DNA of 64,000 nucleotides from Aquisalimonas lutea (GTDB lineage: Bacteria; Pseudomonadota; Gammaproteobacteria; Nitrococcales; Aquisalimonadaceae): assembly GCF_030409225.1 (NCBI RefSeq), contig NZ_JAUFPK010000005.1, forward strand, positions 110,900 to 174,899. Reading direction: 5' to 3'. Made by a program: the position numbers and the translations under genes. Within the stretch, counting starts at the first letter, position 1. Each line of letters begins with the position of its first letter. Below, piece after piece: positions 16,484-23,906 of the stretch. The notes beneath the pieces were generated by a model. The model did no database searches. It saw only the letters and a list, made by a program, of their open reading frames with translations, and had not been told where the DNA came from.

Positions 16484-16849
16484 ATGCCGTTGCCCGTGCT
16501 CGTTGTGGATGATTCCTCCATGTCCAGGAAGCTCACCATCCGGGCGTTTCCCGGTGACTGGGACGTGGAGGTCTCGCAGGCCTCGGGCGGCCAGGAGGCT
16601 CTCGATGCGATCGAGCGGGGCCTGGGGCACGTGGTGTTCCTGGATCTCACCATGCCGGGAATGAGCGGCTTCGACGTGCTCGCCGAGATCCGGCGGCGGG
16701 GTCTGGACTGCTTCGCCGTCGTGGTGTCGGCGGACGTCCAGCCGAAGGCCGAAGAGCAGGCGCGCCAGCTTGGAGCCATGGCGTTCGTGCGCAAGCCGGT
16801 CAAGGCGGACGCGCTGCACGGCGTTCTCCGGGAGTACGGCTTCCTATGA
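16484..16849 (+). CDS. single-domain response regulator (CheY-like receiver)
   Basis: Encodes 121 residues, consisting only of a receiver domain. The acidic pair Asp9-Asp10, the phospho-acceptor Asp54 (VVFLDLTMPG), the switch serine in VVVSAD and Lys104 (RKPVKAD) are all present. There is no output domain, so it must act by protein contact. Its stop overlaps the start of a CheC-like phosphatase by four bases. That makes it the natural substrate of that phosphatase and a likely input to the diguanylate cyclase encoded third. The kinase that phosphorylates it is not in the window. Confidence 0.9.
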   Translation: MPLPVLVVDDSSMSRKLTIRAFPGDWDVEVSQASGGQEALDAIERGLGHVVFLDLTMPGMSGFDVLAEIRRRGLDCFAVVVSADVQPKAEEQARQLGAMAFVRKPVKADALHGVLREYGFL

Positions 16850-17478
16850 CCTTCCAGGAATACACGCCGGATCAGGAAGACGCCCTGCAGGAGGTGGTGA
16901 ACATCGCCATGGGCCAGGCCGGGGCGGCGCTGGCGCAGGTTCTCGACGTCTACGTGGCGTTGTCGGTGCCCCGGGTGCGTATCGTGTCGGCGGACGGCGT
17001 GGCGGACGCCGTGCAGGCCATGATTGCGAGCGCGCAGGACGGCGATCCGGGGGACGTGACGGCTGTCCGCCAGGGGTTCTTCAACAGTCTGCGCGGTGAA
17101 TCCATCGCCTTGTTCGGGACGGAAGGCTGCAACAGCCTCGCCGATCTCATGGGGCACGAGCAGGCCCTGGAGAAGGACGAGATCGACCGGGAGCTGCTGC
17201 TGGAAGTCAGCAACATCCTCTCGGGGGCGGTGCTGAACGGCGTTGCCGAGCAGCTGGATACGGACTTCGCGTTTTCCGCCCCCACGCTGATGGCCATGAG
17301 GCAACCGGTGAACCGGTTGCTTGATGCGCAAGCGCTGGGCTGGGACTACGCATTGCTCGTGGAGGTCAACTTCCGCCTGGAAGCTCCCGGCTTCTCCTGC
17401 CACCTGGTGCTGCTGATGCCGGAAGAGTCCATCGAGTTCATGCGCCGGGGCCTGGATGCGATGCTGGAGGGGTTGTGA
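16846..17478 (+). CDS. CheC-like phosphatase of a response regulator
   Basis: Encodes 210 residues. It has two copies of the CheC/CheX/FliY active-site pattern, in which a Glu and an Asn three residues apart are followed 22 residues later by Pro. Copy one is D12, E16, N19, P42; copy two is E120, N123, P146. These residues position water to hydrolyse a receiver aspartyl phosphate. No CheD gene or flagellar gene is nearby, so it is probably a dedicated phosphatase for the receiver encoded just before it. ATG 16846 overlaps the receiver stop by four bases, and its own stop overlaps the next GTG in the same way. Confidence 0.82.
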   Translation: MTFQEYTPDQEDALQEVVNIAMGQAGAALAQVLDVYVALSVPRVRIVSADGVADAVQAMIASAQDGDPGDVTAVRQGFFNSLRGESIALFGTEGCNSLADLMGHEQALEKDEIDRELLLEVSNILSGAVLNGVAEQLDTDFAFSAPTLMAMRQPVNRLLDAQALGWDYALLVEVNFRLEAPGFSCHLVLLMPEESIEFMRRGLDAMLEGL

Positions 17479-18437
17479 ACCACCCGGACGGCGACTCCAG
17501 GGACCTGCTGGAGTCGATCGTCGATCGCGTGAACGTCGGTGTGCTCGTCGTCGATGCGCACTACACCGTGGTCCGGTGGAACCGGTTCATGGCCATGCAC
17601 AGCGGCCTTGCGGCGGACGACGTGCTCGGTCGCGACTTGTTCACCGTCTTTCCGGACCTCCCGCGCCGATGGCTGACCCAGAAACTGCGCGGTGTGTTCC
17701 TTCTCAAGAACTACGCCTTCACCTCCTGGGAGCAGCGTCCCTACCTGTTCCGGTTTCCGCACAATCGGCCCGCTACGACGGCCGTCGTGGATTGCATGCG
17801 CCAGGACTGCACGTTCATTCCCATCAAGGATGGCGACAATCACGTCACCCACGTATGCATTACCATCATGGATGCAACCGATACGTGCATCTACCAGATA
17901 CAGCTCCGGGAGGCGATGGACAGCCTGGAAAAGAGCAGTGCGCGTGATCCGTTGACCGGCATTTTCAATCGCGGCCATATCGAGTCCCGGCTCCGCGACG
18001 AGTTCGCGCGCAGTCACCGGCACGACAGCGATCTGTCGGTCATACTGTTCGACATCGATCATTTCAAGCGGGTAAACGACCTCCACGGCCACATGGCAGG
18101 CGACGAAGTCCTGTGCGAGGTGGCCAACCGGGTCGCGGGGGCGCTGCGGAAGGAGGATGTCTTCGGTCGTTACGGCGGCGAGGAGTTCACCGTCGTGCTG
18201 CCGGACTCCGACCTGGCGGCGGCGCGGGTTGTTGCCGAGCGCCTGCGCCACTGCATCGCGGCCCGCCCGATCGTCACCTCCGCCGGTGCCGTTGACGTTA
18301 CGGTCACCCTGGGCGTTTGTCGGCGCCATCCGGATATCGCGACCCACGAAACACTCCTCAACCGGGCGGACCAGGCCCTCTACCGCGGCAAGGCGGGTGG
18401 CCGCAACGGGGTGTTCCTGTACGAGGACGAGGCCTGA
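17475..18437 (+). CDS. PAS-domain diguanylate cyclase
   Basis: Encodes 320 residues. A PAS-like sensor domain (about 8-140, DRVNVGVLVVDAHYTVVRWNRFM) contains two cysteines. A short helical linker and a GGDEF domain (about 155-318) follow. The active loop reads GRYGGEEF, a functional GGEEF form. RKED lies five residues before it, matching the RxxD inhibitory site for product feedback. It should make cyclic di-GMP. No membrane segment is visible, so the protein is cytoplasmic. GTG 17475 overlaps the CheC-like stop by four bases, completing a coupled three-gene cassette. Confidence 0.9.
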   Translation: MNHPDGDSRDLLESIVDRVNVGVLVVDAHYTVVRWNRFMAMHSGLAADDVLGRDLFTVFPDLPRRWLTQKLRGVFLLKNYAFTSWEQRPYLFRFPHNRPATTAVVDCMRQDCTFIPIKDGDNHVTHVCITIMDATDTCIYQIQLREAMDSLEKSSARDPLTGIFNRGHIESRLRDEFARSHRHDSDLSVILFDIDHFKRVNDLHGHMAGDEVLCEVANRVAGALRKEDVFGRYGGEEFTVVLPDSDLAAARVVAERLRHCIAARPIVTSAGAVDVTVTLGVCRRHPDIATHETLLNRADQALYRGKAGGRNGVFLYEDEA

Positions 18438-19082: not shown

Positions 19083-20492
19083 ATGGCTGCAGGGGAACCG
19101 GAGCTGAGCACCGACCAGAAAGCGCTGACCATCAACCTGGACAAGTTCAAGTTCGGCTCCATCGTGGAGATCGGCGCCGGTCAGGAGGTGGCGCGCCGTT
19201 TCTTCCAGGTCGGCGCGGCGGCGGGCACCATTGCCAAGACCATGTCGGCCTACGACATGGCGGTCAGCGACGATATCTACGGCCCGGTGGACCGCTATGT
19301 CAGCCGCGCCCGTCTGATGCAGATGCTGGACAAGGAGTTCAGCCAGGTGGTCAACCGGCTCACGGACGTGCGGCCGCGGAACTCCACCTTCTTCGCGTAC
19401 GCGGCCACGGTCACGGCCCGCAGCTTCAAGCAGCGCAATGAATGCCATGGCTGGGTAGGCATCCGGGCGCAGTTTCACCCGGGAGCGGAACCCAGCGACA
19501 TCGTGCTGCACGTGCGCATGCTCGACCAGGACAACGCCCAGCAGGCGGATGCCCTGGGCATTCTGGGCGTGAATCTCATCTACGGTGCCTTCTTCCATCA
19601 CAACTGGCCGGAGCAGGTAGTCGCCGGCCTGCGCGACGAGCTGGGCTCCGACCGCATCGAGGTGGATTGCATCCATTTCTCCGGGCCGTACTTCGAGGAA
19701 GTGGACAACCGGCACATGAACCTGCAGCTGATCCGCAGCTGGCTGACCCGCGCGGTGATCTTCAATCCCGACGGGCAGGTGGTGGTGCCGGGGGAGCTGT
19801 TCTACCGCAAGCCGGTGCTGGTCATCCGCGGGCTGTTCAAGCCGGTGACGCGGGTGAATGCGGACATGATGCTGTCCGGCCAGCAGCATTTCCGCCAGCT
19901 CGGCGGCGTGGATGCGGACGAGACGGTATCGCTGGCGGAGATCACCATGAACGCGCCTGCGGTCGAAGAGGTGCCCGACGACGCCGATTTCCTCGCCCGG
20001 GCGGACCTGCTGGCGGCGCTGGGCTATACCGTCATGATCTCCGACTACGTGCGCTTCTTCCGGCTGCGCGCCTACCTGCGGCGGTACACGCAGAGGCCCA
20101 TCGGCATCGTGCTCAGTGTCCGCGATTTCGGCACGCTGTTCGACGAGCGCTACTACGAGGGCGTCGAGGGCGGCATCCTGGAGGCGTTCGGCAAGCTGTT
20201 CCCGGACAATACCCAGGTCTATGTCTACCCGTCGCGCCGGCCCGACGAGACGGAAACCACCACCCTCCACAACGCCCGGGTGCCGTCACACCTGCGGCAC
20301 CTGCTGGCCCACCTGGTCGAGAACGGCAAGCTGCAGGCCATCGACCCCTGTGACGACAGCTGCCTGGACATCGACGCGGGTGAGGTCCTGGCCGGCCTGC
20401 GAGCGGGACGCGGCACCTGGGAGCAGGCCGTTCCCGAGCCCGTGGCCCAGGCCATCATCGAGCGCCGCCTGCTGGGATTTGATTCGGCATAG
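19083..20492 (+). CDS. conserved protein of unknown function (family sometimes mislabelled)
   Basis: Encodes 469 residues with no signal peptide or membrane segment. I recall close relatives in cyanobacteria and other bacteria sharing the opening LNLDKFKFGSIVEIGAGQEVARRFF and the pattern GTIAKTMSAYDMAVSDDIYG, GVNLIYGAFF, ISDYVRFFRLRAYLRRYT and GTWEQAVPEPVAQAI. These are often auto-named nicotinate-nucleotide adenylyltransferase or TonB-dependent receptor. I see no nucleotidyltransferase HxGH motif and no beta-barrel features, so neither name is supported. ATG 19083 is the chosen start. The next gene starts 170 bases downstream on the same strand, and an ATP-grasp gene converges from the right. 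Confidence 0.7.
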   Translation: MAAGEPELSTDQKALTINLDKFKFGSIVEIGAGQEVARRFFQVGAAAGTIAKTMSAYDMAVSDDIYGPVDRYVSRARLMQMLDKEFSQVVNRLTDVRPRNSTFFAYAATVTARSFKQRNECHGWVGIRAQFHPGAEPSDIVLHVRMLDQDNAQQADALGILGVNLIYGAFFHHNWPEQVVAGLRDELGSDRIEVDCIHFSGPYFEEVDNRHMNLQLIRSWLTRAVIFNPDGQVVVPGELFYRKPVLVIRGLFKPVTRVNADMMLSGQQHFRQLGGVDADETVSLAEITMNAPAVEEVPDDADFLARADLLAALGYTVMISDYVRFFRLRAYLRRYTQRPIGIVLSVRDFGTLFDERYYEGVEGGILEAFGKLFPDNTQVYVYPSRRPDETETTTLHNARVPSHLRHLLAHLVENGKLQAIDPCDDSCLDIDAGEVLAGLRAGRGTWEQAVPEPVAQAIIERRLLGFDSA

Positions 20493-20662
20493 GACGCCGA
20501 GCTCTTCCTCCCGGAACGTCTCCGTTGCGCCTGCCGATCGCTGCCCGCGCCGCGGACGATGGTCCCGGGGCCAGTGGACAAAATCGGCCCCGGAGGCCAC
20601 TATGCCCCGGGGTCGATCCGACACGCAGCGGGCCTCTCCGGGGCACCGGGGATGGAGAGACA

Positions 20663-22666
20663 ATGACGGATGGCAATGAGCAACACGGCGCTTCGCTGAT
20701 CCGGTTCGCGGAGCGGCTGGACCAGGCCTGCCACCGTCTGGCGGAGACTTCGAGCTTCGCCAAGTTCACGCACAGCGCCCAGGTCCTGGAGGCCGCCCGC
20801 CGGCTCATGGACCAGCCCGGCGGGGTGGCGGCGGTCTACGAGCGCATGGGTGCGCTGAAGGCGGCCGGGATCTTCTCCGGCAGTGACTGGGAGAATCCGC
20901 ACCAGCTCCAGCCGGAGATGGCGGCCAATACGCTCAAGCTGAGCACCGGCCACACGCTGGTCCTGGAGTGCCTGAGCGAGCTGTGGATGGCCTCCGTTGC
21001 GGAGGGGACGCTGGAGTCCACGGTCCTGTCCTCCGATGACGCGCGCGCCTTCCTGGCCCGGGTCCTGGCGCTGAATATCCAGCTGATCTTCGGCGAGCTG
21101 GGCGAGGCGGAACGTGTCCGCCTCGGCCGCAATGCCGATCTGGTGCGCTCCCACCAGCAGTTCATCCTCGAGCGCATCGGCTTCGACGCCGTGGTCGAGG
21201 AGCTGATCGGCGAGATCTGGCGGATTCTCCAGCAACGCCCCATCCAGCTGGATCACGTCAAGGCCATGATTACCAGCGTGGCGGCCTACCTGAACAGCAA
21301 CGAGTCCGGCGTGGCCATGACCAGCACGCGCGGCGCGGAACGGCTGATCAGCGCGCTCTACGGGCCCACCCGCGGCTGCCAGGAGGATCCGGGCCTGGAG
21401 GTGTTCGCCACCCGCCTGCAGGGCATGGACGAGCAGACCCTGCGCAACGAGGCCCTCGGCTTCGGGCGCGCCATGCACGATACCGGCCTGGTGTCCCCGT
21501 ACCACGCCGTATTCCTTCGCTTCATCCTGGACCAGGCCCCGGATCTGGTGCCGTCCACCCTGGGGCTCAGCAGCACCGGGATCGAGGTGCTGGCCTGCTA
21601 CAGCACCCTGGTGCACACGCTCATCCGCGAAGCCGTGTGGCCCGAGACGGCGGATGCCGTCTACGGCCTCGCGGGCCTGCTGGAGCGGGGCGTGCTCTAC
21701 AGCGGCCCGGTACCGCCGGCGCTGTGGCGCCAGATCCATCTGGAGCTGTGCTCGGAGGCGGTGCGGCTGCTGGATGCCGGTTCCCAGGGCGGGGCGGTGG
21801 CGCCCCGCACGCGGCTTCTGGCCGGCGTGATCAACGTCCTCGGCCGGCCGCTGGGCATGGGCCAGGGCAACAATCCCACGTGCCAGTCGGCCCGCGCTCT
21901 GTCCATGTGGTCCACCAACGACCCGGACTATCTCCTGCAGGTGGTTGCCTGGGCCGCCCGGGACAACGACGTGATCACCCATTTCGAGGGGCGCGCCCTG
22001 TCGTCGGCGGCCCTGGCGGCGCGCGAGCAGCCGGTCCCGCTGGGCGACGTGGATCCCGTCTCCGCGGTCGCCGTGCCCCACCTCGACGACCTGTACATGG
22101 AGATGGGGCGGCTGTGTGTGGGCCGCGGCGAGGATCCGCACAAGTGGGTGAATCCGGAGTTCCACGGCTGGTGGGTGGGACGCGGCTTCGCCATCGTGGT
22201 GGATGTGGCCAGCGGCAACCTGGTGGATTTCGACGGCTTCGCGCGGCGTTTCTATGCCTGCTATCACCCGCTGTTCAACGGCAACAACCCGGTCATCCAT
22301 TCACAGCCGGCCGGCGTTGCCGTCACCGACTCCACGGCCCGCTTCGTGGGCTGGCACGCCATCTCCATCGAGCGGGTGGGTTTCGATCCCGAGGGGTTGA
22401 TGCGGGTGTACTTCTTCAACCCGAACAACGACAGCACCCAGGACTGGGGCAACGGCGTCGTGGTCTCCACGGAGGGGGCAGGGGAGTACTACGGCGAGTC
22501 GTCACTGCCGTTCGAAGCGTTCGTCTCGCGGCTGTATATCTTCCATTTCGATCCCAGGGACGAGGCGCGGGACGTGGATGTCCCGGAGGAGGCCGTCGCC
22601 CGCATCCGTGCCATGGCGGTGGGCAGCTGGGCGGCCGGGCGCCAGGCGCCGGAGGCCGGCGCCTGA
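20663..22666 (+). CDS. large protein of unknown function with a possible papain-like Cys-His-Asn triad
   Basis: Encodes 667 residues, soluble, mostly helical in the first 400 (no signal peptide, no membrane helices). I do not recognise the family. The C-terminal third holds GNNPTCQSARALSMW (Cys407), RFVGWHAISIERVG (His565) and VYFFNPNNDSTQDWG (Asn586, Asp590). This order and spacing fit a papain-like or C39-like thiol hydrolase: helix-capping Cys, then His, then Asn/Asp-Pro about 20 residues on. It is inference from motif geometry only. ATG 20663 was chosen because GGAGAGA lies just upstream (20654-20660); the frame is open further left without family-like sequence. It ends 13 bases from the convergent ATP-grasp gene. 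Confidence 0.7.
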   Translation: MTDGNEQHGASLIRFAERLDQACHRLAETSSFAKFTHSAQVLEAARRLMDQPGGVAAVYERMGALKAAGIFSGSDWENPHQLQPEMAANTLKLSTGHTLVLECLSELWMASVAEGTLESTVLSSDDARAFLARVLALNIQLIFGELGEAERVRLGRNADLVRSHQQFILERIGFDAVVEELIGEIWRILQQRPIQLDHVKAMITSVAAYLNSNESGVAMTSTRGAERLISALYGPTRGCQEDPGLEVFATRLQGMDEQTLRNEALGFGRAMHDTGLVSPYHAVFLRFILDQAPDLVPSTLGLSSTGIEVLACYSTLVHTLIREAVWPETADAVYGLAGLLERGVLYSGPVPPALWRQIHLELCSEAVRLLDAGSQGGAVAPRTRLLAGVINVLGRPLGMGQGNNPTCQSARALSMWSTNDPDYLLQVVAWAARDNDVITHFEGRALSSAALAAREQPVPLGDVDPVSAVAVPHLDDLYMEMGRLCVGRGEDPHKWVNPEFHGWWVGRGFAIVVDVASGNLVDFDGFARRFYACYHPLFNGNNPVIHSQPAGVAVTDSTARFVGWHAISIERVGFDPEGLMRVYFFNPNNDSTQDWGNGVVVSTEGAGEYYGESSLPFEAFVSRLYIFHFDPRDEARDVDVPEEAVARIRAMAVGSWAAGRQAPEAGA

Positions 22667-22679
22667 GCTTTTGCCGCTG

Positions 22680-23906
22680 CTAGACGTAGAAGTCCAGCTC
22701 TTCCTGGTGCTTGAGCAGATCCCGCAGCTTGTGCGGGTTGTCCCCGAAGAAGTAGACCAGGCCCCAGTGGGTGCCGAATGCCGTACGCTTGGTGACCGTC
22801 TCCTCCAGCGGCGGCGTCAGCTCGTGGTACTCGAAGTACTCGTGGTTCTCGGTCTCTTCCGGGATCTCGAGCTTCGACACCACGCGCCGACGGGGATAGA
22901 CACCGAAGCAGCCGGCGTGCCCCTTGGCATCCACCACCTCCCGGGGGAAGAAGGCCTCGACCTCCTCTTCGGTGGTCTTGGGGTCGAAGCACAGCACCAT
23001 GCCCTGGTAGGCGTTGAACCCGTACGCCCGCTCCAGCAGCTCGAAGACCTTGAAGCCCGGCGGCCGGTAGGCCACCTCGCCGAAGTACATGGTGCCGTCG
23101 CTGGTGACGAAGTACTCGGGATGGATGAAGCCGAAGTCGATGTCGAAAGTCTTGATCAGCTTCTCGATCTCCTTGGTGATCAGGTTGCGCCAGCTCTCCA
23201 GCTCCGGGGTCGCCGGCACGAACACGGAGTAGCCCAGCGTCACGTACTCGGAGATGTTCAGGAAGCGGATCTTGCCGTTCTGGATCCAGGCCTCGACGGC
23301 GAACTCCCAGCCGTCCAGGTGGCTTTCCATGAGTAGCGGGTATTCTTCCTCGGGGATCAGGTCGATCTCGTCCGGGTGGCGGATGACCCGGTGTCCGAGG
23401 CAGCCGGCCTTGTCGAAGGCCTTCAGGTGGATCGGGTCGTCCGGGTCGCCGTCGAGCTTCAGCAGCGTCTGGTTGACGCGCTTGAGGAAGCGGATCACGT
23501 CGGACTTGTCGTGGGCCTCCTCGAAGATGCCCACGCGGATGCCGCCCAGCTGGGCGCGCCGCTTCATCAGCGCCTTGTCGCGGAACAGCACGGCCTGGCC
23601 GTGCAGGCGCGGGTTGCCCATGAGCACGGCATTGATGGCACCCGCCCATTCCACCGTTTCCTCGAACAGGGGGATGGCGACGTCGACGCCTTCGTCCTTG
23701 AGGCGCTCGGCGATCTCCATGGAGCGGTCGTTGAGGCGCTCGAAGTCCCAGGTGATGTGGGGAATGCCGTGCTCCTTGGCATAGTCCTCGGCCCACTCGG
23801 GGGCCACGATGACGTAGCGCCGGTCGAAGCGTTCCAGCGCGTCGATGCAGCTGATGCTCCAGCCGAGAATGGCGACATAGCCCTTGTCGGGGTTCTTTTC
23901 GGTCAT
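22680..23906 (-). CDS. ATP-grasp domain protein
   Basis: Encodes 408 residues. An N-terminal Rossmann-like pre-ATP-grasp domain (about 1-100: GYVAILGWSISCIDALERF, then DVAIPLFEETVEWAGAIN) precedes the ATP-grasp fold. There, DKALMKRRAQLGGIRV, LKAFDKAG, the acidic FAVEAWIQNGKI strand and FIHPEYFVTSDGTMYFGEVAYRPPG mark nucleotide and Mg binding. Such enzymes couple a carboxylate to an amine or thiol through an acyl phosphate. The substrate cannot be named. It converges on the 667-residue gene with 13 bases between the stops. The start at 23906 has GGAGG upstream. The relation to biotin- or purine-type carboxylases is only at fold level. Confidence 0.78.
   Translation of the reverse strand: MTEKNPDKGYVAILGWSISCIDALERFDRRYVIVAPEWAEDYAKEHGIPHITWDFERLNDRSMEIAERLKDEGVDVAIPLFEETVEWAGAINAVLMGNPRLHGQAVLFRDKALMKRRAQLGGIRVGIFEEAHDKSDVIRFLKRVNQTLLKLDGDPDDPIHLKAFDKAGCLGHRVIRHPDEIDLIPEEEYPLLMESHLDGWEFAVEAWIQNGKIRFLNISEYVTLGYSVFVPATPELESWRNLITKEIEKLIKTFDIDFGFIHPEYFVTSDGTMYFGEVAYRPPGFKVFELLERAYGFNAYQGMVLCFDPKTTEEEVEAFFPREVVDAKGHAGCFGVYPRRRVVSKLEIPEETENHEYFEYHELTPPLEETVTKRTAFGTHWGLVYFFGDNPHKLRDLLKHQEELDFYV

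Follow-up and report, generated by a model that had tools for sequence, protein, structure and literature searches.

A conserved two-gene system was found in a 64,000-nucleotide stretch of the Aquisalimonas lutea genome (contig NZ_JAUFPK010000005.1, positions 110,900 to 174,899 of the forward strand); this whole stretch is called the window here. The system consists of a gene for an ATP-grasp protein of 408 residues (ATPG) and a gene for a protein of 667 residues with a papain-like C-terminal part (U667). It has an accessory third gene, which encodes an amidohydrolase of the histone deacetylase (HDAC) family. The two main genes stand side by side and are inherited together across phyla. The reading favoured here, held at a little under an even chance, is that they form a module in which one enzyme makes an amide and the other cleaves it, carried by bacteria that produce ectoine and are mostly adapted to salt; the two reactions, the shared substrate and the osmotic role are what we infer from the evidence given below.

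Three neighbouring open reading frames had been described in an earlier reading of the window made from the DNA alone (the sequence-only reading), and all three were confirmed in place. As it had reported, U667 and ATPG converge in the window, with 13 bases separating their stop codons. The features are:

20663-22666, + strand: U667, open reading frame of the 667-residue protein; helical N-terminal part and papain-like C-terminal domain, no Pfam family.

20663-21844, + strand: N-terminal part of U667, about residues 1-394, entirely helical in the modelled structure; it may bind protein or have a regulatory role.

21845-22663, + strand: putative papain-like catalytic part of U667 (about residues 395-667); the rows of the solved-structure comparison span residues 367-638.

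21863-21883, + strand: U667 Q401-G402-x4-C407, predicted papain-type oxyanion Gln and nucleophile Cys; invariant in an alignment of 37 sequences.

22355-22357, + strand: U667 H565, candidate catalytic His, conserved across distinct copies.

22418-22420, + strand: U667 N586, candidate catalytic Asn, conserved across distinct copies.

22680-23906, - strand: ATPG, the 408-residue ATP-grasp protein, L-amino-acid-ligase-like according to open reading frame, alignment, model and fold matches.

19083-20492, + strand: open reading frame of a conserved 469-residue protein; a neighbour only, outside the module.

The start of U667 was placed at the ATG after GGAGAGACA. This start is a predicted one, because the longest open reading frame begins upstream at a TTG. 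The ATPG start codon was picked by conservation.

Relatives of U667 were scanned for in one genome per species. At least 587 were confirmed and the best 80 loci were analysed; this set leans to Halomonadaceae and Marinobacter because the best 80 were kept (the identity of the Marinobacter genus, g17, was deduced from adjoining genes). ATPG adjoins U667 in 78 of these 80 loci. The two genes are in tandem on the same strand, ATPG then U667, in 70 of the 78 adjacent loci, a tally that includes L024, where they overlap by a few bases. They are divergent in four loci and convergent, as in the window, in another four. Since all three arrangements keep ATPG and U667 adjacent, a functional link is favoured over a frozen gene order. 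Hosts of the pair among the 80 loci include Halomonadaceae, Marinobacter, Alcanivorax, Ectothiorhodospiraceae, Alphaproteobacteria, Streptomyces, Amycolatopsis and Nocardia, and the pair was also found in metagenome bins labelled Planctomycetaceae and Sumerlaeota. The pair at L045 lies on a contig labelled Phormidium willei with a GC content of 0.70. It groups with a Rhodospirillaceae copy, and the contig is therefore a possible alphaproteobacterial contamination.

Presence of the two genes was scored in genome samples at E 1e-10, with at most four first-look candidates scored per genome, and copy numbers are lower bounds. Among 249 evenly drawn Pseudomonadota genomes, U667 was found in eight and ATPG in the identical eight. 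Among 246 Actinomycetota genomes, both were found in the same two. Thus ten of the 495 genomes carry both genes, 485 carry neither and none carries one alone. Two genomes (G000 and G249) were sampled as known carriers of the pair; without them the counts are 7/248 and 1/245. The sequence-only reading had proposed that a bond-forming and a bond-cleaving enzyme stand side by side in a cluster of three genes. Their pairing is supported, as a conserved ATP-grasp/papain-like pair that extends beyond close relatives, and the third gene, for the 469-residue protein, dropped out of the cluster as an unrelated neighbour.

Pairwise distances of ATPG and U667 were compared by a quick tree method in 72 rows (71 of the 80 loci and L001). 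They correlate with r 0.82, a value reached in none of 999 permutations. In the quick U667 tree, the nine actinobacterial rows form one group beside Oceanimonas among gammaproteobacterial rows. This position suggests lateral transfer, and on this sequence evidence the pair has probably been transferred laterally. Across phyla, ATPG is about 80% identical, against 55% for U667. Among plasmid records, a single Halomonas record of 1.8 Mb carries a near relative of the pair; the other 13 plasmid matches of ATPG are only about 23-27% identical. No ATPG relative was found in viral contigs by the two patterns used. A reading as a defence system was dropped, as PADLOC gave no match. At least three or four copies of U667 are present in each of three genomes of one genus. 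Around two U667 paralogues of one genus (L100:11960-15763 and L107:12045-16617), GCS2-like (glutamate-cysteine ligase family 2), AstE/AspA-like and metallo-beta-lactamase-type genes were seen, with a KAS III-like gene also within a few kb.

ATPG matches the Pfam family PF13535 (ATP-grasp_4) at 21.4 bits, below the cut-off of 27. An alignment of 26 sequences (A1; 25 from the 80 loci) has a mean column identity of 88%. Its profile was compared with solved structures and matched 4dim (E 4e-4), 3vot (E 9e-4) and 4wd3 (E 2.6e-3). The structure model (mean predicted local distance difference test score, pLDDT, 76) has an ATP-grasp fold over the whole chain, with 350 residues aligned to 3vot_B at Z 27.0 and a root-mean-square deviation of 4.2. 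A comparison of models with known ATP-grasp ligases and papain-fold enzymes had been proposed as a check in the sequence-only reading, and for ATPG it agreed with the assignment (U667 is treated below). The top five fold rows for ATPG are L-amino-acid ligases: BL00235 (Z 27.0), BacD/YwfE (three entries, about 25) and RizA (24.5). They are followed by 4dim, named phosphoribosylglycinamide synthetase (Z 24.3, tying with RizA), by PurK (about 22) and by biotin carboxylases (about 19). E264, E277 and R281 of ATPG are invariant in the 26 sequences and aligned with residues of BL00235 and RizA, in RizA those of HxE and GExAxR; ATPG thus has the metal-binding carboxylates and the active-site Arg of such ligases. 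It probably builds amide bonds.

U667 matched nothing in Pfam-A or PADLOC and had no sequence relative among solved structures (up to E 1); it therefore belongs to no named Pfam peptidase family. In NCBIfam, a single weak and irrelevant row was obtained. Its AlphaFold2 model (pLDDT 82, predicted template modelling score 0.76) consists of about 390 helical residues followed by a mixed alpha/beta C-terminal part. The helical part gave weak armadillo-type repeat matches only. In the comparison with solved structures, 47 of the 50 among the matches listed are papain-superfamily enzymes, aligned to residues 367-638: calpain cores reach Z 7.9, staphopains 7.4 and bleomycin hydrolases about 6. Conservation was examined in 96 distinct copies, one of them partial; a wider count of 113 loci includes repeats of the same copy. 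Q401 and C407 are unchanged in 96/96 copies, and Q401, C407, H565 and N586 in all 95 that cover the four positions, paralogues included. The alignment used for the invariant residues (A2) contains 37 sequences, 36 of them from the 80 loci; L015 was left out, as a stop interrupts its match. In the spacing from Gln to Cys and in the order Gln-Cys-His-Asn, U667 agrees with papain. The possible thiol-hydrolase triad that had been pointed out in the 667-residue protein was thus borne out. Because these four residues are conserved on top of fold scores that are individually unsafe, U667 is likely to be a functional papain-type hydrolase, as judged from sequence and model.

Neither the HDAC-family partner nor the association with ectoine producers could be seen in the sequence-only reading. 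Like bacterial classical deacylases, the partner has the Hist_deacetyl domain of Pfam, which the L104 copy matches at 314.3 bits (PF00850, cut-off 27.9). The motifs GHHAE, DWDxHHGNGTQ, SAGFD and LEGGY are present in six full-length aligned copies; the seventh, L041, is cut by the contig end. The HDAC gene adjoins U667 in divergent orientation at L005 and L007, in convergent orientation at L009, L061 and L111, and in the same direction at L041; at L104 it lies about 3 kb from ATPG. In the 249-genome sample, this subfamily was found in seven of the eight pair-positive genomes (at least 65% identity, 528-840 bits) and in none of the 241 negatives, where matches reached at most 228.5 bits (Fisher p 7e-13; by genus 5/6 against 0/126, p 2e-8). 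Unlike other bacterial HDACs, it is thus a distinct subfamily (at least 62% identical to the L104 copy) that is confined to ATPG/U667 genomes in this sample. The copy of the window genome is 65% identical and unlinked to the pair (contig C13, 185129-186217). Among 33 further genomes, all with U667, identity is at least 62% in ten and 48% in one. The HDAC gene is thus accessory: no genome of the 249-genome sample has it without the pair, whereas the pair does occur without it. In the neighbourhoods of the HDAC copies, nothing besides HDAC itself recurs widely. A second HDAC branch, 48-49% identical, was seen in two genomes that carry the pair (G138:C22:196259-197341 and G519:C1:167642-168730), and L021 and L047 have distant HDAC relatives only (34-36%).

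Ectoine synthase (PF06339) was found in 34 of the 249 Pseudomonadota genomes. It is present in 8/8 pair-positive and 26/241 negative genomes (p 6e-8) or, counted by genus, in 6/6 and 17/126 (p 2e-5). It was also found in 32 of the 33 further U667 genomes, one of which (bin G256) yielded no ATPG, against five of 47 pair-negative Actinomycetota genomes; these 47 were searched for ectoine synthase out of 244 pair-negative ones. Once a duplicate had been removed (G016 is G509), ectoine synthase is present in 39 of 40 U667 genomes, with L045 the lone exception. Many large actinobacteria make ectoine anyway, so that the association carries weight in the non-actinobacterial lineages.

Genes around the pair were compared as families present in at least 9 of the 80 loci. 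Nearly all of these families are confined to Halomonadaceae or Marinobacter, are other frames that overlap the pair, or are generic ATP-binding cassette (ABC) ATPases. Mechanosensitive-channel genes were found near the pair in 30 of 32 Halomonadaceae loci (large MscK-type genes within the flank, e.g. L115:2786-6196) and also at L010, L012 and L019. At L012 (2712-3539) and L019 (12063-12896), the next gene after U667 is of the MscS type and lies on the same strand; at L010 the channel gene is more than 6 kb away.

In the module favoured here, ATPG would turn a small carboxylate into an acyl phosphate and couple it to an amine, so that a dipeptide-like amide results; the carboxylate would most likely be an amino acid or a derivative of one. 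U667, as a papain-like amidase or peptidase, would cut or trim this product or its precursor, so that the product level could be set or reversed. In many lineages, the same substrate or product would be deacylated by the HDAC-family zinc amidohydrolase. The product would most likely serve as an osmolyte, or else as a protectant or signal connected with the osmotic state, because the module belongs to ectoine-producing, mostly salt-adapted bacteria.

Several observations weigh against this reading. Concerning its osmotic part, no physical linkage of the pair to ectoine genes was found in the loci compared, and the ectoine association may therefore mark salty habitats instead of a shared pathway. 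The ectoine synthase of the window genome and the small open reading frame upstream of it match nothing in the other loci compared, and the aminotransferase-like neighbour of this synthase has only 25-32% matches there. The channel link is a hint only, as channels are common and the Halomonadaceae order counts as one event. Concerning U667, its plain Foldseek list is led by helical-repeat proteins, with no E-value below 0.001; the best fold match (Z 7.9) falls under the safe level of the tool; and the long helical part would equally suit a protein substrate. Concerning the third partner, no more than 5 of the 80 loci, and two loci outside the 80, have HDAC close to the pair; at E 1e-75, 22 of the 33 further U667 genomes, all ten actinobacterial ones among them, are without it. 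Because related genomes are not independent, counts were given by genus too. Concerning the pairing itself, no ATPG was found at L002 (its contig stops about 30 bases past the U667 match) or elsewhere in the incomplete bin G256, and Halorhodospira L006 has the two genes on separate contigs. U667 paralogues without a nearby ATPG were found at L099, L100, L105, L107 and L109, and ATPG copies without a nearby U667 at L104 and L114, all in genomes that also hold the pair. These five lone U667 and two lone ATPG copies imply that extra copies are not always inherited as a pair.

Known systems resemble the pair in part. Like the L-amino-acid ligases (BL00235, BacD/YwfE, RizA), ATPG has their fold over its whole length and the HxE...GExAxR signature; unlike them, it is tied to a papain-like partner in ectoine-producing bacteria, and it is only 11-16% identical to them. 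Glutathionylspermidine synthetase makes an amide in an ATP-dependent manner. The amidase domain of glutathionylspermidine synthetase/amidase is described as a papain-superfamily CHAP domain (PMC10318531). In contrast, ATPG and U667 are separate genes, and U667 has no CHAP match and a large extra helical part. The operon for the osmolyte N-acetylglutaminylglutamine amide (NAGGN; asnO, ngg and an aminopeptidase gene) is linked to osmotic adaptation and, like the pair, has an enzyme that forms a peptide bond (a dipeptide) and a peptidase gene in one unit (PMC8070244); its peptidase is an aminopeptidase, whereas U667 is papain-like. No asnO-like or ngg-like genes (asparagine-synthase-like, acetyltransferase) were noticed among the neighbours recurring across lineages, most neighbours being unassigned and no search having been aimed at them. 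In the RimK-RimB and rlo operons, an ATP-grasp protein is combined with a retropepsin-like aspartic protease, and a connection with osmotic stress is described for the Rlo proteases (PMC12239564); U667 differs in carrying invariant Cys, His and Asn. Ligase-hydrolase pairings of this kind thus occur, as the NAGGN, RimK-RimB and rlo operons show. The Anbu operon (ATP-grasp, alpha-E, transglutaminase-like and Ntn hydrolase genes), which is undeciphered, also joins an ATP-grasp protein to a hydrolase; unlike the pair, it has another hydrolase fold and four genes, and no HDAC-type partner is mentioned in the accessible part of the source (PMC6376114). Among the open-licence papers listed, no description of an ATP-grasp/papain-like pair was found, and an earlier mention elsewhere is possible.

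Four alternatives to the osmotic amide module were weighed. The first, which is on the unlikely side, is protein tagging: ATPG would work like RimK and attach an amino acid or peptide to a protein, U667, binding protein through its helical part, would remove the tag or degrade the tagged protein, and the HDAC-like enzyme would deacylate lysines. It would account for the large helical region of U667 with its weak armadillo-type matches, and it agrees with papain-type matches that are mostly endopeptidases and with PDB relatives of the HDAC protein that are mostly lysine deacetylases. The RimK-RimB and Anbu operons are precedents for an ATP-grasp protein with a protease-type partner (PMC12239564, PMC6376114). 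On the other side, the best folds for ATPG are ligases of free amino acids, although the absence of RimK-type ligases from that list does not count against them. Besides channel genes and generic ABC ATPases, no family in at least 9 of the 80 loci spans lineages; most neighbours are unassigned, and a tag protein may be among them.

A polyamine conjugation cycle similar to that of glutathionylspermidine synthetase/amidase is improbable. In such a cycle ATPG would acylate a polyamine, U667 would release it and the HDAC-like enzyme would be an acetylpolyamine deacetylase. Polyamine deacetylases do exist within the HDAC family, and the one solid hint comes from two related genomes in which a U667 paralogue ends an operon for a PotFGHI-like polyamine ABC transporter (L105:9989-11941, with a gap of a few bases, and L109:9983-11941). 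At L109 the potA subfamily was matched at 410.6 bits (cut-off 355.6). This arrangement is limited to one genus. A polyamine transporter, which weak similarity had suggested (further weak PotA-like matches were seen too), was rejected as a general neighbour: of the three transporters identified, the one at L109 is for polyamines, like that at L105, and those at L113 and L013 serve sulfate and amino acids. Compared with acetylpolyamine amidohydrolases, HDAC6-type deacetylases are the closer relatives of the HDAC subfamily. It also lacks a Glu in the stretch where the HDAC10 polyamine gatekeeper lies.

BacD and RizA make dipeptide antibiotics or their precursors, and they are among the nearest fold matches of ATPG. 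The product of the pair could accordingly be a diffusible dipeptide antibiotic or signal, with U667 as a maturation or self-protection enzyme. The patchy, probably laterally transferred distribution would fit such a secondary metabolite. In the tables made, in which most neighbours are unassigned, no biosynthetic gene was seen to recur beside the pair across lineages, and an ATPG identity of about 80% across phyla is high for such a pathway; this explanation is no less improbable than the polyamine cycle. That the two enzymes are unrelated and merely travel together, U667 being a general or regulatory peptidase, is very improbable: the lone copies of both genes and the much stronger conservation of ATPG would suit it, and they are opposed by the absence of either gene alone from 495 genomes, by the correlated distances and by an adjacency kept in three arrangements.

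The 469-residue protein had no match in Pfam-A or PADLOC and no sequence relative among solved structures (up to E 1), and no match in NCBIfam. Members of its family that are 51-57% identical were found in two other gammaproteobacterial genomes (L138:8016-9434 and L139:8790-10211). Among the 80 loci, a single one shows the gene linked, that of the Aquisalimonas bin L002. It was found in three of the 249 Pseudomonadota genomes, namely the window genome, G204 and G216, and the latter two are without ATPG and U667. As it is linked in L002 only and two of its three carriers are without the pair, it is regarded as a separate gene. The idea of a three-gene cluster was accordingly given up: the expected co-occurrence holds for ATPG and U667 beyond close relatives, and the 469-residue gene has no conserved neighbourhood, is unlinked elsewhere and occurs without the pair. 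Upstream of it (16484-18437), genes for a response regulator, a CheC/CheX-like phosphatase and a PAS-GGDEF diguanylate cyclase follow one another as an ordinary signalling cluster. An Rfam scan of seven loci and the window found no riboswitch or small RNA upstream; only transfer-messenger RNA, signal recognition particle RNA and one tRNA were detected.

If the osmotic amide module is extended to its full consequence, it would be a new osmoadaptation pathway. A neutral dipeptide- or amide-type solute, or an osmotic signal, would be made by an L-amino-acid ligase and dismantled by a papain-like amidase when salt falls, and its acylated piece would be recycled by an HDAC-type enzyme; the pair would have been passed between Gammaproteobacteria, Alphaproteobacteria and Actinomycetota. 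In so complete a form, this is unlikely. A review of 2005 described the enzymes for neutral dipeptide and derivatized amino acid solutes as unexplored (PMC1224877). Repeatedly, ATP-grasp ligases with a hydrolase partner have turned out to produce or control metabolites and protein tags that had not been expected. Tractable halophiles, among them Halomonas elongata and Marinobacter, would allow a test of the hypothesis that joins salt, ectoine and the deacylase. If the pair does make a solute, the short list of amide osmolytes would be extended.

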